From Modestobacter sp. Leaf380 (GTDB taxonomy: Bacteria; Actinomycetota; Actinomycetes; Mycobacteriales; Geodermatophilaceae), in contig NZ_LMQC01000001.1 in assembly GCF_001424485.1 (NCBI RefSeq), positions 501,755 to 565,754 on the forward strand: a stretch of DNA of 64,000 nt. Reading direction: 5' to 3'. This document shows, piece after piece, positions 41,004 through 62,867 of the stretch (position 1 is its first letter; each line of letters starts with the position of its first letter). The position numbers were made by a program, and so were the translations under genes. The notes under the pieces were generated by a model that saw only the letters and a list, made by a program, of their open reading frames with translations, made no database searches and was not told the origin of the DNA.

Positions 41004-41474
41004 TCACCAGCGGTAGTGCGCGAAGGCCTTGTTCGACTCGGCCATCTTGTGCGTGTCCTCGCGGCGCTTGACCGCGGCACCGAGGCCGTTGCTGGCGTCG
41101 AGCAGCTCGTTCATGAGGCGCTCGGTCATGGTCTTCTCACGACGCGAGCGGCTGTACTGGATGAGCCACCGCAGGCCCAGGGTGGTGCTGCGCGAGGGAC
41201 GGACCTCGATCGGCACCTGGTACGTGGCGCCACCGACGCGACGGCTGCGCACCTCGAGGGCGGGCTTCACGTTGTCCAGCGCACGCTTGAGGGTCACGAC
41301 CGGGTCCGTGTCGTTCTTGGCCCGGACGCCCTCGAGGGCGCCGTAGACGATCGCCTCGGCGATGGAGCGCTTGCCGTCGACGAGCACCTTGTTGACGAGC
41401 TGGGTGACCAGCTGCGACTGGTACACCGGGTCGACGACGAGCGGACGCTTCGGCGCGGGGCCCTTGCGCGGCAT
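41004..41474 (-). CDS. rpsG: 30S ribosomal protein S7
   Basis: 16S rRNA 3'-domain organiser. [35 protein letters not shown] and [13 protein letters not shown] are characteristic. The length is 156 residues from the ATG at 41474, which shares one base with the rpsL stop (TAATG). Confidence 0.98.
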
Positions 41475-41848
41475 TAGCTCTTCTCCTTCTTCGCGCCGTA
41501 CCGGCTGCGAGCCTGCTTGCGACCGCGGACCGCCTGGGTGTCCAGGGAGCCACGGATGATCTTGTAACGGACGCCGGGGAGGTCCTTCACTCGGCCACCA
41601 CGCACGAGCACCATGGAGTGCTCCTGCAGGTTGTGACCGACACCGGGGATGTACGCGGTGACCTCGACGCCACTGGTCAGCCGGACGCGAGCGACCTTGC
41701 GCAGCGCCGAGTTCGGCTTCTTCGGCGTCGTCGTGTAGACGCGCGTGCACACGCCGCGGCGCTGAGGGGATCCCTTCAACGCCGGGGTCTTGGTCTTCTC
41801 GACCTTGTCCTCGCGGCCCTTGCGGACCAGCTGCTGGATCGTGGGCAT
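41474..41848 (-). CDS. rpsL: 30S ribosomal protein S12
   Basis: Decoding-centre protein, first gene of the str unit, 124 residues. Lys43 ([12 protein letters not shown]) and Lys88 ([12 protein letters not shown]) are both wild type, so no classical streptomycin-resistance substitution is present. The 659 bases to the divergent protease gene hold its promoter and a leader of about 320 nt. Confidence 0.98.
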
Positions 41849-42421: not shown

Positions 42422-42444
42422 CTGTCAGACCCTCCCCCTACCGT
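42422..42444 (+). promoter_or_regulatory. RecA-NDp/PafBC-like promoter of the protease gene
   Basis: The sequence CTGTCAGACCC, six bases and TACCGT follow the spacing of the known LexA-independent actinobacterial DNA-damage promoter (TTGTCAGTGGC-N6-TAGGGT). The TGTCAG core and the TAnnnT -10 box match. The protease GTG is 63 bases downstream. Recognition by PafBC is inferred. Confidence 0.5.
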
Positions 42445-42507
42445 CGGGAGTCGAACGGTCACACCGGCCCGGGACCCACCCGGCTGGACCGCCCCCAGGA
42501 GGCCACC

Positions 42508-43485
42508 GTGCACGTCGACTCCGCCCGCGAGCTGAAGGCCCTGCTGTCCCGCCGGCTCTCCGAGGCGCCTCCCGGGTCGGTGGTGGCCAGTGGCGTCCCC
42601 TCGGGCTCGGACTGGAGCGGCGTGGCGCTCGGGCTGACCCCCGTCGGGCCGGGCCAGGTGCACCTCGCGGTCCGGCTGGTGGCCGAGACCGACGCGGCCC
42701 GCGTGCTCGAGGGGCTCGGCGAGGCTGCACGCAGCGAGGTCGACGTCCGGGTGATCGGCCCCGTCCGCCCCCTCACCTCCCCCACACCCGGGCAGCTGCA
42801 ACGCCGCACCCGCCCGCTGGTGCCGGGTCTGTCGATCGCCCAGCGGGACGTGACGGCCGGGACGCTGGGAGGCTTCGTGCGTCGCGCCGGGGCGGGCGGG
42901 CTGCTCGTGCTGTCCAACAACCACGTGCTGGCCGACAGCGACCTGGCCACCGTCGGGGACCCGGTCCTGCAGCCCGGGCCGGCGGACGGCGGCACCGCAC
43001 AGGACCGTGTCGGCGTGCTCACGGCCGCCCAGCGCTTCTCGGCCACCGGCAACCTCGTGGACGCCGCGGTCGCCGCCCTCGACGACGGGGTGGACGCCGA
43101 CCCGGCCGGCTACCCGGGTGGCCCGCTGCTGGGCATCGTCGCTGCCGCGCTGGACGTGGACCCCGACGAGGACGTCGAGAAGGTCGGCCGGACCACCGGC
43201 CACACCCACGGCCGGATCACCGCCGTCGAGGTCGACGGGGTCGGCGTGCAGTACGACGAAGGCGTCTACACCTTCGACGACCAGATCGAGATCGAGGGCC
43301 GCACCGGCTCCTTCAGCGAGGGCGGTGACTCCGGCTCGGTCATCTGGCGCAGCCGGGACCGGGCCGCGCTGGGCCTGCTGTTCGCCGGCTCGACGACGGG
43401 TGGGGCCAACGGCGGGGGCGTCACCTTCGCCAACCCGCTGGCCACCGTCCTGGACGTGCTGGGGCTGGAGTGGGTCGCCGACTGA
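42508..43485 (+). CDS. trypsin-like serine protease without signal peptide
   Basis: A 325-residue protein with an AGGAGG site five bases before its GTG. Residues 105-315 form a chymotrypsin-fold protease. The catalytic triad is His139 (LSNNHVLAD), probably Asp185 (NLVDAAVAAL) and Ser275 (GGDSGS, 272-277), with KVGRTTGHTHGRITAV between. The block PGLSIAQRDVTAGTLGGFV precedes it, as in bacterial trypsin-like peptidases of the NAL1-related type. Residues 25-90 form a small alpha/beta module around GVALGL. There is no signal peptide or membrane helix, so it should be cytoplasmic. The target is unknown. A DNA-damage-type promoter lies upstream. Confidence 0.85.
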   Translation: MHVDSARELKALLSRRLSEAPPGSVVASGVPSGSDWSGVALGLTPVGPGQVHLAVRLVAETDAARVLEGLGEAARSEVDVRVIGPVRPLTSPTPGQLQRRTRPLVPGLSIAQRDVTAGTLGGFVRRAGAGGLLVLSNNHVLADSDLATVGDPVLQPGPADGGTAQDRVGVLTAAQRFSATGNLVDAAVAALDDGVDADPAGYPGGPLLGIVAAALDVDPDEDVEKVGRTTGHTHGRITAVEVDGVGVQYDEGVYTFDDQIEIEGRTGSFSEGGDSGSVIWRSRDRAALGLLFAGSTTGGANGGGVTFANPLATVLDVLGLEWVAD

Positions 43486-43541
43486 CCCGTCCAGCCGGGT
43501 GAGGTCTGGGCAGGACCGCTTCCCGGGTGGACCATGGGTGC

Positions 43542-43778
43542 ATGACCGCTGCCCACCCGGACCGCTCGGCCGCCCGTGCGGCCAAGACCGAGCTCGCCGC
43601 ACGGCTGGCGGCCGAACCCGGCGTCGTGGGTGTGGGGCTGGCACGGCGGGACACCGAGTACGTGGTCCGCGTCGACCTGACCGACAGCGGTGCGGGCTCG
43701 CGCGTACCGGGGACGGTCTCGGGCGTCAGGGTCGTCACCCAGGTGATCGGCGGCGTCCGGGCCCTGCCCGCGACCTGA
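43542..43778 (+). CDS. 78-residue protein resembling a protease-associated module
   Basis: It starts at the ATG at 43542, 57 bases after the protease stop. Residues 15-60 read as helix, VVGVGL (28-33), then YVVRVDL, and near the end VPGTVSGVRVVTQVIGG. This pattern resembles the small module that precedes the catalytic domain in NAL1-like and related trypsin-family proteins, including residues 25-90 of the neighbouring protease. It could be a free-standing partner, chaperone or inhibitor. No cysteines, signal peptide or enzyme motif are seen. A GTG five codons upstream is an alternative start. Confidence 0.62.
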   Translation: MTAAHPDRSAARAAKTELAARLAAEPGVVGVGLARRDTEYVVRVDLTDSGAGSRVPGTVSGVRVVTQVIGGVRALPAT

Positions 43779-43929
43779 CCCCGCTCCCCCGACACCCGCC
43801 GTCCACCACACCCGCTCCACCAGCCCACGCACTCCGCGACACCCGCTCCTGCATGAGCTCGCCGCCGGGAGGAGGCGCGTGTCACAGTGCCGGCAGACGG
43901 CGATCGTCGCCGCCGGCGAGGGGGCACAC

Positions 43930-44970
43930 GTGCGCATCGGCATCCAGGCGGCCTACGCAGGGGACTTCCGGCAGACCGCGAGCGAGATCGCCGACCTCGA
44001 GCAGGTCGGCCTCGACGTGGCGGTCTGCGCGGAGGTGTACACCTTCGACGCGGTCAGCCAGCTCGGCTACCTCGCCGCGGTCACCGAGCGGGTCGAGCTG
44101 ATGAGCGGGATCCTCCCCCTCTACAGCCGGACCCCGGCGCTGACGGCGATGACCGCGGCCGGCCTGGACTTCGTGTCCGGTGGCCGGTTCACCCTGGGTC
44201 TGGGCGCCTCGGGGCCGCAGGTCGTCGAGGGCTGGCACGGCGTCCCCTACGACGCACCGCTGGCCCGCACGCGCGAGCTGGTGGAGATCTGCCGGCAGGT
44301 GTGGCGCCGCGAGAAGCTGGAGCACGCCGGCCCCAAGTACACCGTTCCCCTGCCCGCGGACCAAGGCACCGGCCTGGGCAAGGCGCTCAAGCTGATCAAC
44401 ACCCCGGTCCGGGAGCGCATCCCGGTCATGCTGGCCGCGATCGGCCCCAAGAACGTCGAGCTGGCCGCGGAGATCGCCGAGGTCTGGGAACCCATCTGGT
44501 TCCACCCCGAGCGCGCAGCGGACGTCTGGGGGGACGCGCTGACCGCCGGGCGGGCCCGTCGCGACCCCGCCCTCGGCGAGCTGGGCATCGTGGCCGGTGT
44601 CCCGGTGGCCATCGGCGAGCACGTCGACCACCTGCTGGACGCCGTCCGTCCGGCCCTGGCCCTCTACGTCGGCGGGATGGGTGCCAGGGGGAAGAACTTC
44701 TACAACGACCTCGCCGTCCGCTACGGGTACGCCGAGGCCGCCGCGACCGTGCAGGACCTCTACCTGTCCGGCCGGAAGGACGAGGCGGCGGCCGCACTGC
44801 CCGAGGACCTGGTCCGGGCGGTGTCACTGGTCGGGCCGGAGTCCTGGGTGGCCGAGCGGATCGCCGCCTTCGCCGAGGCCGGGGTCACGGTGCTGACCTG
44901 CCAGCCGCTGGACGACAGCCGGGAGGGTCGGCGGGCGACCGTCGAGACCATGGCCCGGCTCTGCCACTGA
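43930..44970 (+). CDS. LLM-class (F420-type) oxidoreductase
   Basis: A 346-residue TIM-barrel protein of the luciferase-like superfamily, probably using coenzyme F420 or flavin. It begins VRIGIQAAYAGDF, the first barrel strand, and shows SGGRFTLGLGASGPQVVEGWHG and VPVMLAAIGPKNVELAAEIAE-like stretches (read as in IPVMLAAIGPKN). The GTG at 43930 has a GAGGGG site five bases upstream. An earlier GTG at 43879 has its AGGAGG only three bases away and lacks conserved sequence. Substrate unknown. It follows the small protein after 151 bases and may or may not be co-transcribed. Confidence 0.85.
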   Translation: MRIGIQAAYAGDFRQTASEIADLEQVGLDVAVCAEVYTFDAVSQLGYLAAVTERVELMSGILPLYSRTPALTAMTAAGLDFVSGGRFTLGLGASGPQVVEGWHGVPYDAPLARTRELVEICRQVWRREKLEHAGPKYTVPLPADQGTGLGKALKLINTPVRERIPVMLAAIGPKNVELAAEIAEVWEPIWFHPERAADVWGDALTAGRARRDPALGELGIVAGVPVAIGEHVDHLLDAVRPALALYVGGMGARGKNFYNDLAVRYGYAEAAATVQDLYLSGRKDEAAAALPEDLVRAVSLVGPESWVAERIAAFAEAGVTVLTCQPLDDSREGRRATVETMARLCH

Positions 44971-61995: not shown

Positions 61996-62867
61996 CCTGC
62001 GATCCTCACCGTCGTCGTGGAGCCCCAGATGGCCAGGGACAGGAACAGGTCGATGACCATCACGGCCACGATCGAGAAGCGCACGGCACGACCGACGGCC
62101 AGGCCGACGCCGGCGGGCCCGCCGCCGGCCCGGTAGCCGTAGTAGCAGTGGCTCAGGATGATCACGACGCTGAAGACGAGCACCTTGAGGAAGGACCACA
62201 GCACGTCCTGCGGGGGCAGGAAGAGGTTGAAGTAGTGGTCGTAGGTGCCCGCCGACTGGCCGTAGACCGTCGTGGTGATGGTGCGGGTGGCGAAGTAGCT
62301 GGTCAGCAGCCCGATCACGTAGAGCGGGATGACGGCGACGAAGCCGGCGACGATGCGGGTGGTCACCAGGAACGGCAGCGAGGGCACGCCCATGACCTCC
62401 AGGGCGTCGATCTCCTCGTTGATCCGCATGGCACCGATCTGGGCGGTGAAGCCGCAGCCGACGGTGGCCGACAGGGCGAGCCCGGCGACCAGCGGCGCGA
62501 TCTCCCGGGTGTTGAAGTAGGCCGAGAGGAACCCGGTGAACGCCGAGGTGCCCAGCTGGTCCAGCGCCGCGTAGCCCTGCAGGCCGACCTCGGTGCCGGT
62601 GAAGAAGGACAGGAACGCGATGACGCCGACGGTGCCGCCGATGACGGCCAGCGCGCCGGTGCCGAAGCTGACCTCGGCCAGCAGCCGGAGCGTCTCCCGC
62701 TTGTAGCGCTTGAGCGTGCGCGGGGTCCAGGCCAGCGCGCGCCCGTAGAAGCCGAGCTGGTCCCCGAGGTCGTCGAGCACCGTGAGCGGACGGCGGTAGA
62801 CGGTCGCCACGATCCGGCGGGTGCGGACCTTGACCCGGTCGACGGGTGAGAGGAGGGCCACGGTCAC
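61992..62867 (-). CDS. yrbEB: Mce permease YrbEB (MlaE family)
   Basis: Second permease of the Mce ABC-type importer, 291 residues with five or six hydrophobic helices. The coupling-helix motif MRINEEIDALEVMGVPSLPF faces the ATPase. FTAQIGA and SHCYYGYRAGGGPAGVG are family features. The GTG start overlaps the yrbEA stop (GTGA). Confidence 0.93.
   Translation of the reverse strand: MTVALLSPVDRVKVRTRRIVATVYRRPLTVLDDLGDQLGFYGRALAWTPRTLKRYKRETLRLLAEVSFGTGALAVIGGTVGVIAFLSFFTGTEVGLQGYAALDQLGTSAFTGFLSAYFNTREIAPLVAGLALSATVGCGFTAQIGAMRINEEIDALEVMGVPSLPFLVTTRIVAGFVAVIPLYVIGLLTSYFATRTITTTVYGQSAGTYDHYFNLFLPPQDVLWSFLKVLVFSVVIILSHCYYGYRAGGGPAGVGLAVGRAVRFSIVAVMVIDLFLSLAIWGSTTTVRIAG

Follow-up and report, generated by a model that had tools for sequence, protein, structure and literature searches.

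The stretch of DNA analysed here, 64,000 nucleotides of Modestobacter sp. Leaf380 (contig NZ_LMQC01000001.1, positions 501,755 to 565,754; hereafter the window), raises the question of what a trypsin-like serine protease gene and a gene for a 78-residue protein do together behind a promoter-like sequence of the DNA-damage type. The analysis established both genes, an invariant catalytic triad, conserved pairing, a conserved promoter-like element, homology between the small protein and the protease's N-terminal module, and recurrence of such pairs. Whether the two genes form a unit of the DNA-damage response, in which a protease is encoded with its own pro-domain-like regulator, is evenly balanced in our judgement when the account is taken as a whole. 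The coordinates, lengths and reading frames given in the original prediction for the protease (GTG start, 325 residues) and the 78-residue protein were correct, and so was its good ribosome-binding site. The parts of the locus are as follows.

42422 to 42444, plus strand: putative promoter, a variant of the RecA-NDp/PafBC type (C-TGTCAG-ACCC-N6-TACCGT), supported by its being the single site in the window, its recA-matrix score and its conservation
42497 to 42502, plus strand: ribosome-binding site AGGAGG, read from the sequence, 5 bases 5' of the GTG
42508 to 43485, plus strand: NAL1-type trypsin-like serine protease, 325 residues, GTG start
42508 to 42792, plus strand: N-terminal module of the protease (about residues 1-95), from the profile-profile match to the small protein; low-confidence structure model
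42811 to 43482, plus strand: protease domain (about residues 102-325), range of the structural alignment
42922 to 42924, plus strand: codon of catalytic His139
43060 to 43062, plus strand: codon of catalytic Asp185
43330 to 43332, plus strand: codon of catalytic Ser275 (in GGDSGS)
43542 to 43778, plus strand: free-standing module of 78 residues, a predicted pro-domain-like protease regulator, from its pairing, AlphaFold2 model and fold matches

The protease was found to be a member of the known NAL1-type family, named after the plant trypsin-like serine protease NARROW LEAF 1 (Pfam Nal1_C, PF25819, and NAL1_N, PF25608). Its fold agreed with a solved NAL1 structure over the protease domain, and Nal1_C passed marginally, at 26.6 bits against a cut-off of 26.1; one orthologue (L074) scored 24.0, under the cut-off. 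NAL1_N did not match the window protease but did match more distant bacterial relatives, of which one on a Rhizobium plasmid (L342) scored above the cut-off at 1e-6 and another (L341) remained under it. No NCBIfam model matched at this locus. The enzyme kind is therefore not new, and the unusual parts are the detached N-terminal module next to the protease and the promoter. Compared with plant NAL1, the window protease is bacterial and shorter (325 residues, where chain 8has_A has 582), and it has a DNA-damage-type promoter and a free-standing N-terminal-type module alongside.

The predicted triad of His139, Asp185 and Ser275 was invariant in all 76 aligned orthologues of the family Geodermatophilaceae, from which L112 was excluded because its start is misassigned, and no loss of the triad could be seen among these homologues. 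Judged from sequence, the window protease is very probably catalytically active. By eye, no hydrophobic signal stretch was visible at its N-terminus, in agreement with the predicted lack of a signal peptide.

Conservation of the pair was surveyed in 112 genomes of the family by separate searches for the protease and the small protein, each of which matched 78 genomes. The protease match in G013 was a distant paralogue and the small-protein match in G028 was weak and lay elsewhere in the genome; the remaining 77 genomes held both genes, with the small gene always following the protease gene in the same orientation. No genome with only one of the two orthologues was found among the 112. The gap between the genes was 10-211 bases over the 76 loci with chosen starts (L114 was read separately); the exceptions were L089, with 1,301 bases, and L115, where the genes overlap by 4 bases. 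In L089, a Geodermatophilus, the gap appears by eye to consist largely of a short GC-rich unit repeated in tandem. Two neighbours frame the pair.

41474 to 41848, minus strand: rpsL, upstream neighbour, divergent from the protease gene
43879 to 44970: oxidoreductase gene, luciferase-like by reading, downstream neighbour of the small gene

The divergent rpsL was upstream at all 77 pair loci and the oxidoreductase downstream at 73 of them. Among the 35 family genomes without the pair, rpsL was located in 29 and 26 loci were examined; in 23 of these rpsL was followed directly by the oxidoreductase with neither gene matched between, two (L311, L336) ended at rpsL with the contig, and in L330 the 1.5 kb upstream held none of the three genes. 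Conserved pairing in relatives, which had been proposed as a check, was thus found. As separate observations, free-standing modules occurred in L122 and L123 (E 6e-18 and 3e-20) with no recognisable NAL1-type protease in the flanks examined, and the genome of L123 (G009) also holds a regular pair at another place.

That the small protein resembles the protease's N-terminal module, as noticed from the sequence at the outset, was confirmed. Profile-profile comparison by hhalign gave a probability of 96.4 (E 1.1e-9), and with wider alignments the score was 44.0, where 100 column shuffles gave at most 18.8; the likeness to the N-terminal modules of in-family paralogues was weak (hhalign 19.4 against a shuffle maximum of 16.9). 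Most of the small protein is conserved as a folded domain, its AlphaFold2 model reached a predicted local distance difference test score of 88.8, and the best fold matches of that model were the pro regions of alpha-lytic protease. A Pfam scan of eleven small proteins gave no match. According to these models, the small protein is most likely a pro-domain-like module with the architecture of the C-terminal lobe in the pro region of alpha-lytic protease, and therefore would most likely bind the protease in trans; direct binding is graded as probable, slightly less so than PafBC-type control of the pair. Alpha-lytic protease is secreted, carries a signal peptide and has its pro region cleaved within one chain, whereas the window enzyme looks cytoplasmic and its pro-like module is a separate gene; with no hydrophobic N-terminus visible by eye, it was not assigned to that family.

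The earlier suggestion of a regulator or substrate adaptor can thereby be sharpened on its first half to a detached pro-domain-like module, and adaptor and subunit roles stay as rivals. In the same operon, the small protein could act as an adaptor for substrates or as a structural component of an oligomeric protease instead of an inhibitor or folding helper. Several NAL1 entries of the PDB contain at least six chains, the protease retains its attached module in the aligned orthologues (in the window as a low-confidence model), which would leave the free copy another job, and in another family, f22, to which Jiangella asiatica belongs, the protease seems to occur with no free copy of the module. 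We nevertheless regard such a role as unlikely, since the best fold matches are pro regions of an S1 protease and no substrate-binding feature was identified.

Outside the family, a class sample of 394 genomes, own genome included, gave matches to the protease profile in 32 and to the small-protein profile in 7; misses are possible because these searches scored few first-look candidates per genome (15 in one search). Among the 16 lowest-ranked named loci (L295-L310), 13 had the small gene adjoining the protease, including Kineococcus, Nocardiopsis, Halopolyspora and a metagenome-assembled genome (MAG) of Acidobacteria; one of the 13, L299, is a family MAG already counted as L114, and L304 and L307 are f22 genomes without the small gene. 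In nine of L295-L310 the start of the small gene overlapped the protease stop by 4 bases (GTGA or ATGA), an arrangement typical of tight operons, and the same overlap was seen in L115, L199, L200, L209 and L217; L310 appears alike, with one unread base in its small gene.

A free module could also be found near distant NAL1-type proteases. It lies downstream of the protease in L118 and L341 (a Rubrobacter radiotolerans plasmid), precedes it in L221, L222 and L116, and is encoded on the opposite strand in L224 and L342. E-values before inclusion in the model were 4.8e-7 for L118, 1.2e-6 for L224, 0.0018 for L222 and 0.045 for L221; these earlier values are the ones that count, as the later model took in all four together with L123. 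For loci outside model building the values were 9.3e-11 (L341), 1.5e-6 (L116), 2.3e-4 (L342) and 0.0026 (L343). The L341 and L342 proteases also have an attached module, by weak hidden Markov model matches and the NAL1_N scores given above; within distant proteases such module matches reached modest values (E 0.0007-0.009). Next to L117, L119-L121, L220, L223, L225-L227 and the f22 loci, some of which have short flanks (e.g. L203), the searches turned up no free module. Pairs of the module and a NAL1-type protease recur.

On two Rhizobium plasmids (L342, L343), the NAL1-type protease and module-like gene stand beside a radical SAM gene and a HEXXH peptide-modification gene, surroundings that suggest a peptide-modification cluster. 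These two loci, with their module matches beside the protease, are the ground for supposing that the small protein is a substrate of the protease or a peptide precursor. We consider this very unlikely for the window, where the small protein is a largely conserved folded domain with homology to the N-terminus of the protease itself, and the neighbours are rpsL and an oxidoreductase.

The promoter was examined at the locus, in orthologues and genome-wide. The sequence TGTCAG-N10-TACCGT at 42423-42444 on the plus strand is the sole match to TGTC[AG]G-N10-TANNNT in the window; because 0.11 such sites were expected and 11 of 100 shuffles held at least one, the match judged from the window alone is no more than suggestive. 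In the family, TGTC[AG]G-N10-TANNNT occurs before recA in 29 of 30 loci listed and before the window genome's own recA, in a classical form, TGTCGGTG, and an ACCC form, for example TGTCGGACCCCCG; the protease promoter carries the ACCC form. A motif matrix was built from these 30 recA sites (the 30 loci being those listed among 103 matching genomes), which comprise 15 distinct sequences, and was scanned over the 250 bases upstream of the protease. It scored 22.5 at the window site, which none of 40 shuffles reached, at least 5 bits in 71 of the 77 orthologous loci and at least 0 in 73. At 5 bits or more, nothing was found on the opposite strand (0/77), in the next 250 bases on either strand (0/77 and 0/77) or after the small gene (0/76). 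The sites of 71 of 77 orthologues were never reached by 40 shuffles each, and L094, L114 and L115 lay at background. With the loci anchored on the site, the motif columns averaged 1.24 bits, compared with 0.11 over the preceding 60 bases and 0.47 over the following 30, a measure that is partly circular because the anchor picks the motif.

Beyond the family, the strict motif was present within 150 bases of the protease in 7 of 15 f22 loci, against none in 3000 shuffles, and no rpsL was seen in the f22 protease flanks examined. In Kineococcus, TGTC[AG]G-N10-CANNNT was found in 5 of 6 loci against 1 match in 1200 shuffles, and this form, a pattern picked post hoc, is no more than suggestive. The claim of a RecA-NDp-like promoter therefore stood as to the presence of the site and its conservation upstream of family orthologues, which had also been proposed as a check; what did not hold was the full consensus, the site being a variant. 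A chance motif, which the window alone would not exclude, was rejected by the control regions, the shuffles and genome-wide counts. A TGTCGT element was considered as a separate regulon and rejected; it is rare (2 sites in the window's genome, 1 in G070) and therefore looks like drift of the same site.

Across the window genome, TGTC[AG]G-N10-TASNNT occurred 35 times and the reversed pattern 4 times. With the matches to the full RecA-NDp consensus, which we take to be TGTCRGTG-N8-TANNNT, both searches gave 37 sites, for which downstream frames were listed (32 + 5) and 30 frames scanned against Pfam, 5 of them without a family. The identities indicated by Pfam families or their domains included RNase HII, NAD-dependent DNA ligase, RNase J, SbcD, UvrD, a RecQ-like helicase, an XPB-type helicase, thymidylate kinase, an HhH-GPD glycosylase, DnaX, an exonuclease, ScpA and ClpP; UvrC was recognised by reading. 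The genome also encodes PafA (model score 760 bits), next to which lie one frame that combines HTH_PafC, WYL and WCX domains (PafC) and a second with WYL and WCX; two proteasome subunits share this cluster. The locus thus resembles the PafBC regulon of mycobacteria and other actinobacteria in a promoter class common to family recA, repair genes and the window site, and in the presence of PafA and PafC. Excerpts of two papers tie PafBC to DNA damage (PMC6789036; PMC11804915), and the latter describes its activation by single-stranded DNA and action on RNA polymerase. PafBC-type control of the pair in Geodermatophilaceae is, from these sequence comparisons, likely.

Several results weigh against a damage-induced pair of protease and regulator. 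The protease-promoter site is not among the 13 genome matches of the full consensus; strict TGTC[AG]G was present in just 34 of 77 orthologues, and of the 73 scored sites 22 have T and 12 have C as the sixth motif base; other pair-bearing outgroups, such as Nocardiopsis and Halopolyspora, showed no comparable motif; and a carboxyltransferase, a histidine biosynthesis enzyme and a GAPDH-like frame (by reading), none a repair gene, also follow such sites. The small gene was found in 0 of 16 protease-bearing f22 genomes sampled (15 candidates scored per genome in one search) and in none of the flanks examined, and may not be obligatory for the protease. The departure of more than half of the orthologues from the strict motif and the non-repair genes would suit an ordinary or differently regulated promoter of a GC-rich family, the pair then being a housekeeping proteolysis unit with no DNA-damage link. 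This is rather improbable, as the recA-only matrix picks the protease site and leaves the four control regions empty, the genome-wide excess is accompanied by many repair genes, and the motif recurs 5' of the protease in f22 away from rpsL. As a side observation, the f22 protease (e.g. L201, L208, L214), without the small gene, lies near a thymidine phosphorylase-like frame, with a cytidine deaminase-like frame upstream (by eye), a possible nucleoside-salvage setting.

The original proposal of a stress-induced intracellular proteolysis unit therefore keeps its conserved pair, motif and triad, while PafBC control, proteolysis, binding and an inhibitory or foldase role are what we infer. When single-stranded DNA accumulates, PafBC would direct RNA polymerase to the TGTCAG-N10-TACCGT promoter, and the two proteins would be produced together with repair proteins: a cytoplasmic NAL1-type serine protease with its N-terminal module, and a detached copy of that module. 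The latter, from its predicted fold, would most likely bind the protease domain in trans as folding helper and inhibitor, setting the amount and duration of active protease. The enzyme would in this respect be comparable to alpha-lytic protease, needing the module or being restrained by it, with one copy attached and the other produced separately. The protease could then trim or remove specific proteins during or after repair, plausible tasks being clearance of damaged or unwanted proteins or cleavage of a single regulatory target. More tentatively, and in our view somewhat doubtfully, NAL1-type proteases with a separately encoded trans-acting pro-domain may be widespread in bacteria, recruited to the LexA-independent (PafBC) response in Geodermatophilaceae and some other actinobacteria, with plant NAL1 a cousin that has the attached module only.

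If the account is true, the PafBC response, whose other descriptions centre on repair genes and the Pup-proteasome, also includes a protease encoded alongside its regulator, and this in families noted for tolerating desiccation and radiation. NAL1 is a well-known rice yield gene, for which bacterial models would become available and a function of the N-terminal domain would be suggested; a pro-domain would moreover serve as a separate, reusable intracellular subunit. Among the matches listed in a literature search of titles and abstract starts, no bacterial NAL1-type protease in a DNA-damage response or PafBC regulon was found.

Two other assignments of the locus were considered. A defence system was rejected, PADLOC models giving no match. 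For a phage or plasmid origin only partial, distant matches were found: PHROG 20754 ('protease') matched residues 99-323 at 3.5e-34, and no phage record matched more than 80% of the protease query. A putative serine protease of an archaeal virus of Aeropyrum (Alphaspiravirus yamagawaense, HE681887, 10793-11002) was distantly similar. Three family paralogues (L119, L120, L121) combine a NAL1-type protease with a DNA/RNA non-specific endonuclease in one chain (Endonuclease_NS by Pfam in L119 and L120, by similarity in L121).

Further RecA-NDp-like sites were seen in genome G000. Those at G000:C7:59060-59081 and 62524-62545 (L105, L133, L190) precede a Thoeris ThsB-type TIR protein (Pfam ThsB_TIR) and a metallo-beta-lactamase-fold protein 3.5 kb further along, which may mark a defence island linked to damage. 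Among L132, L141, L143 and L229, such sites lie just 5' of two S9 peptidases and ClpP, and the TGTCGT variant precedes a peptidase that reads as M16-like. The RecA-NDp regulon may thus include proteolysis as a general component.
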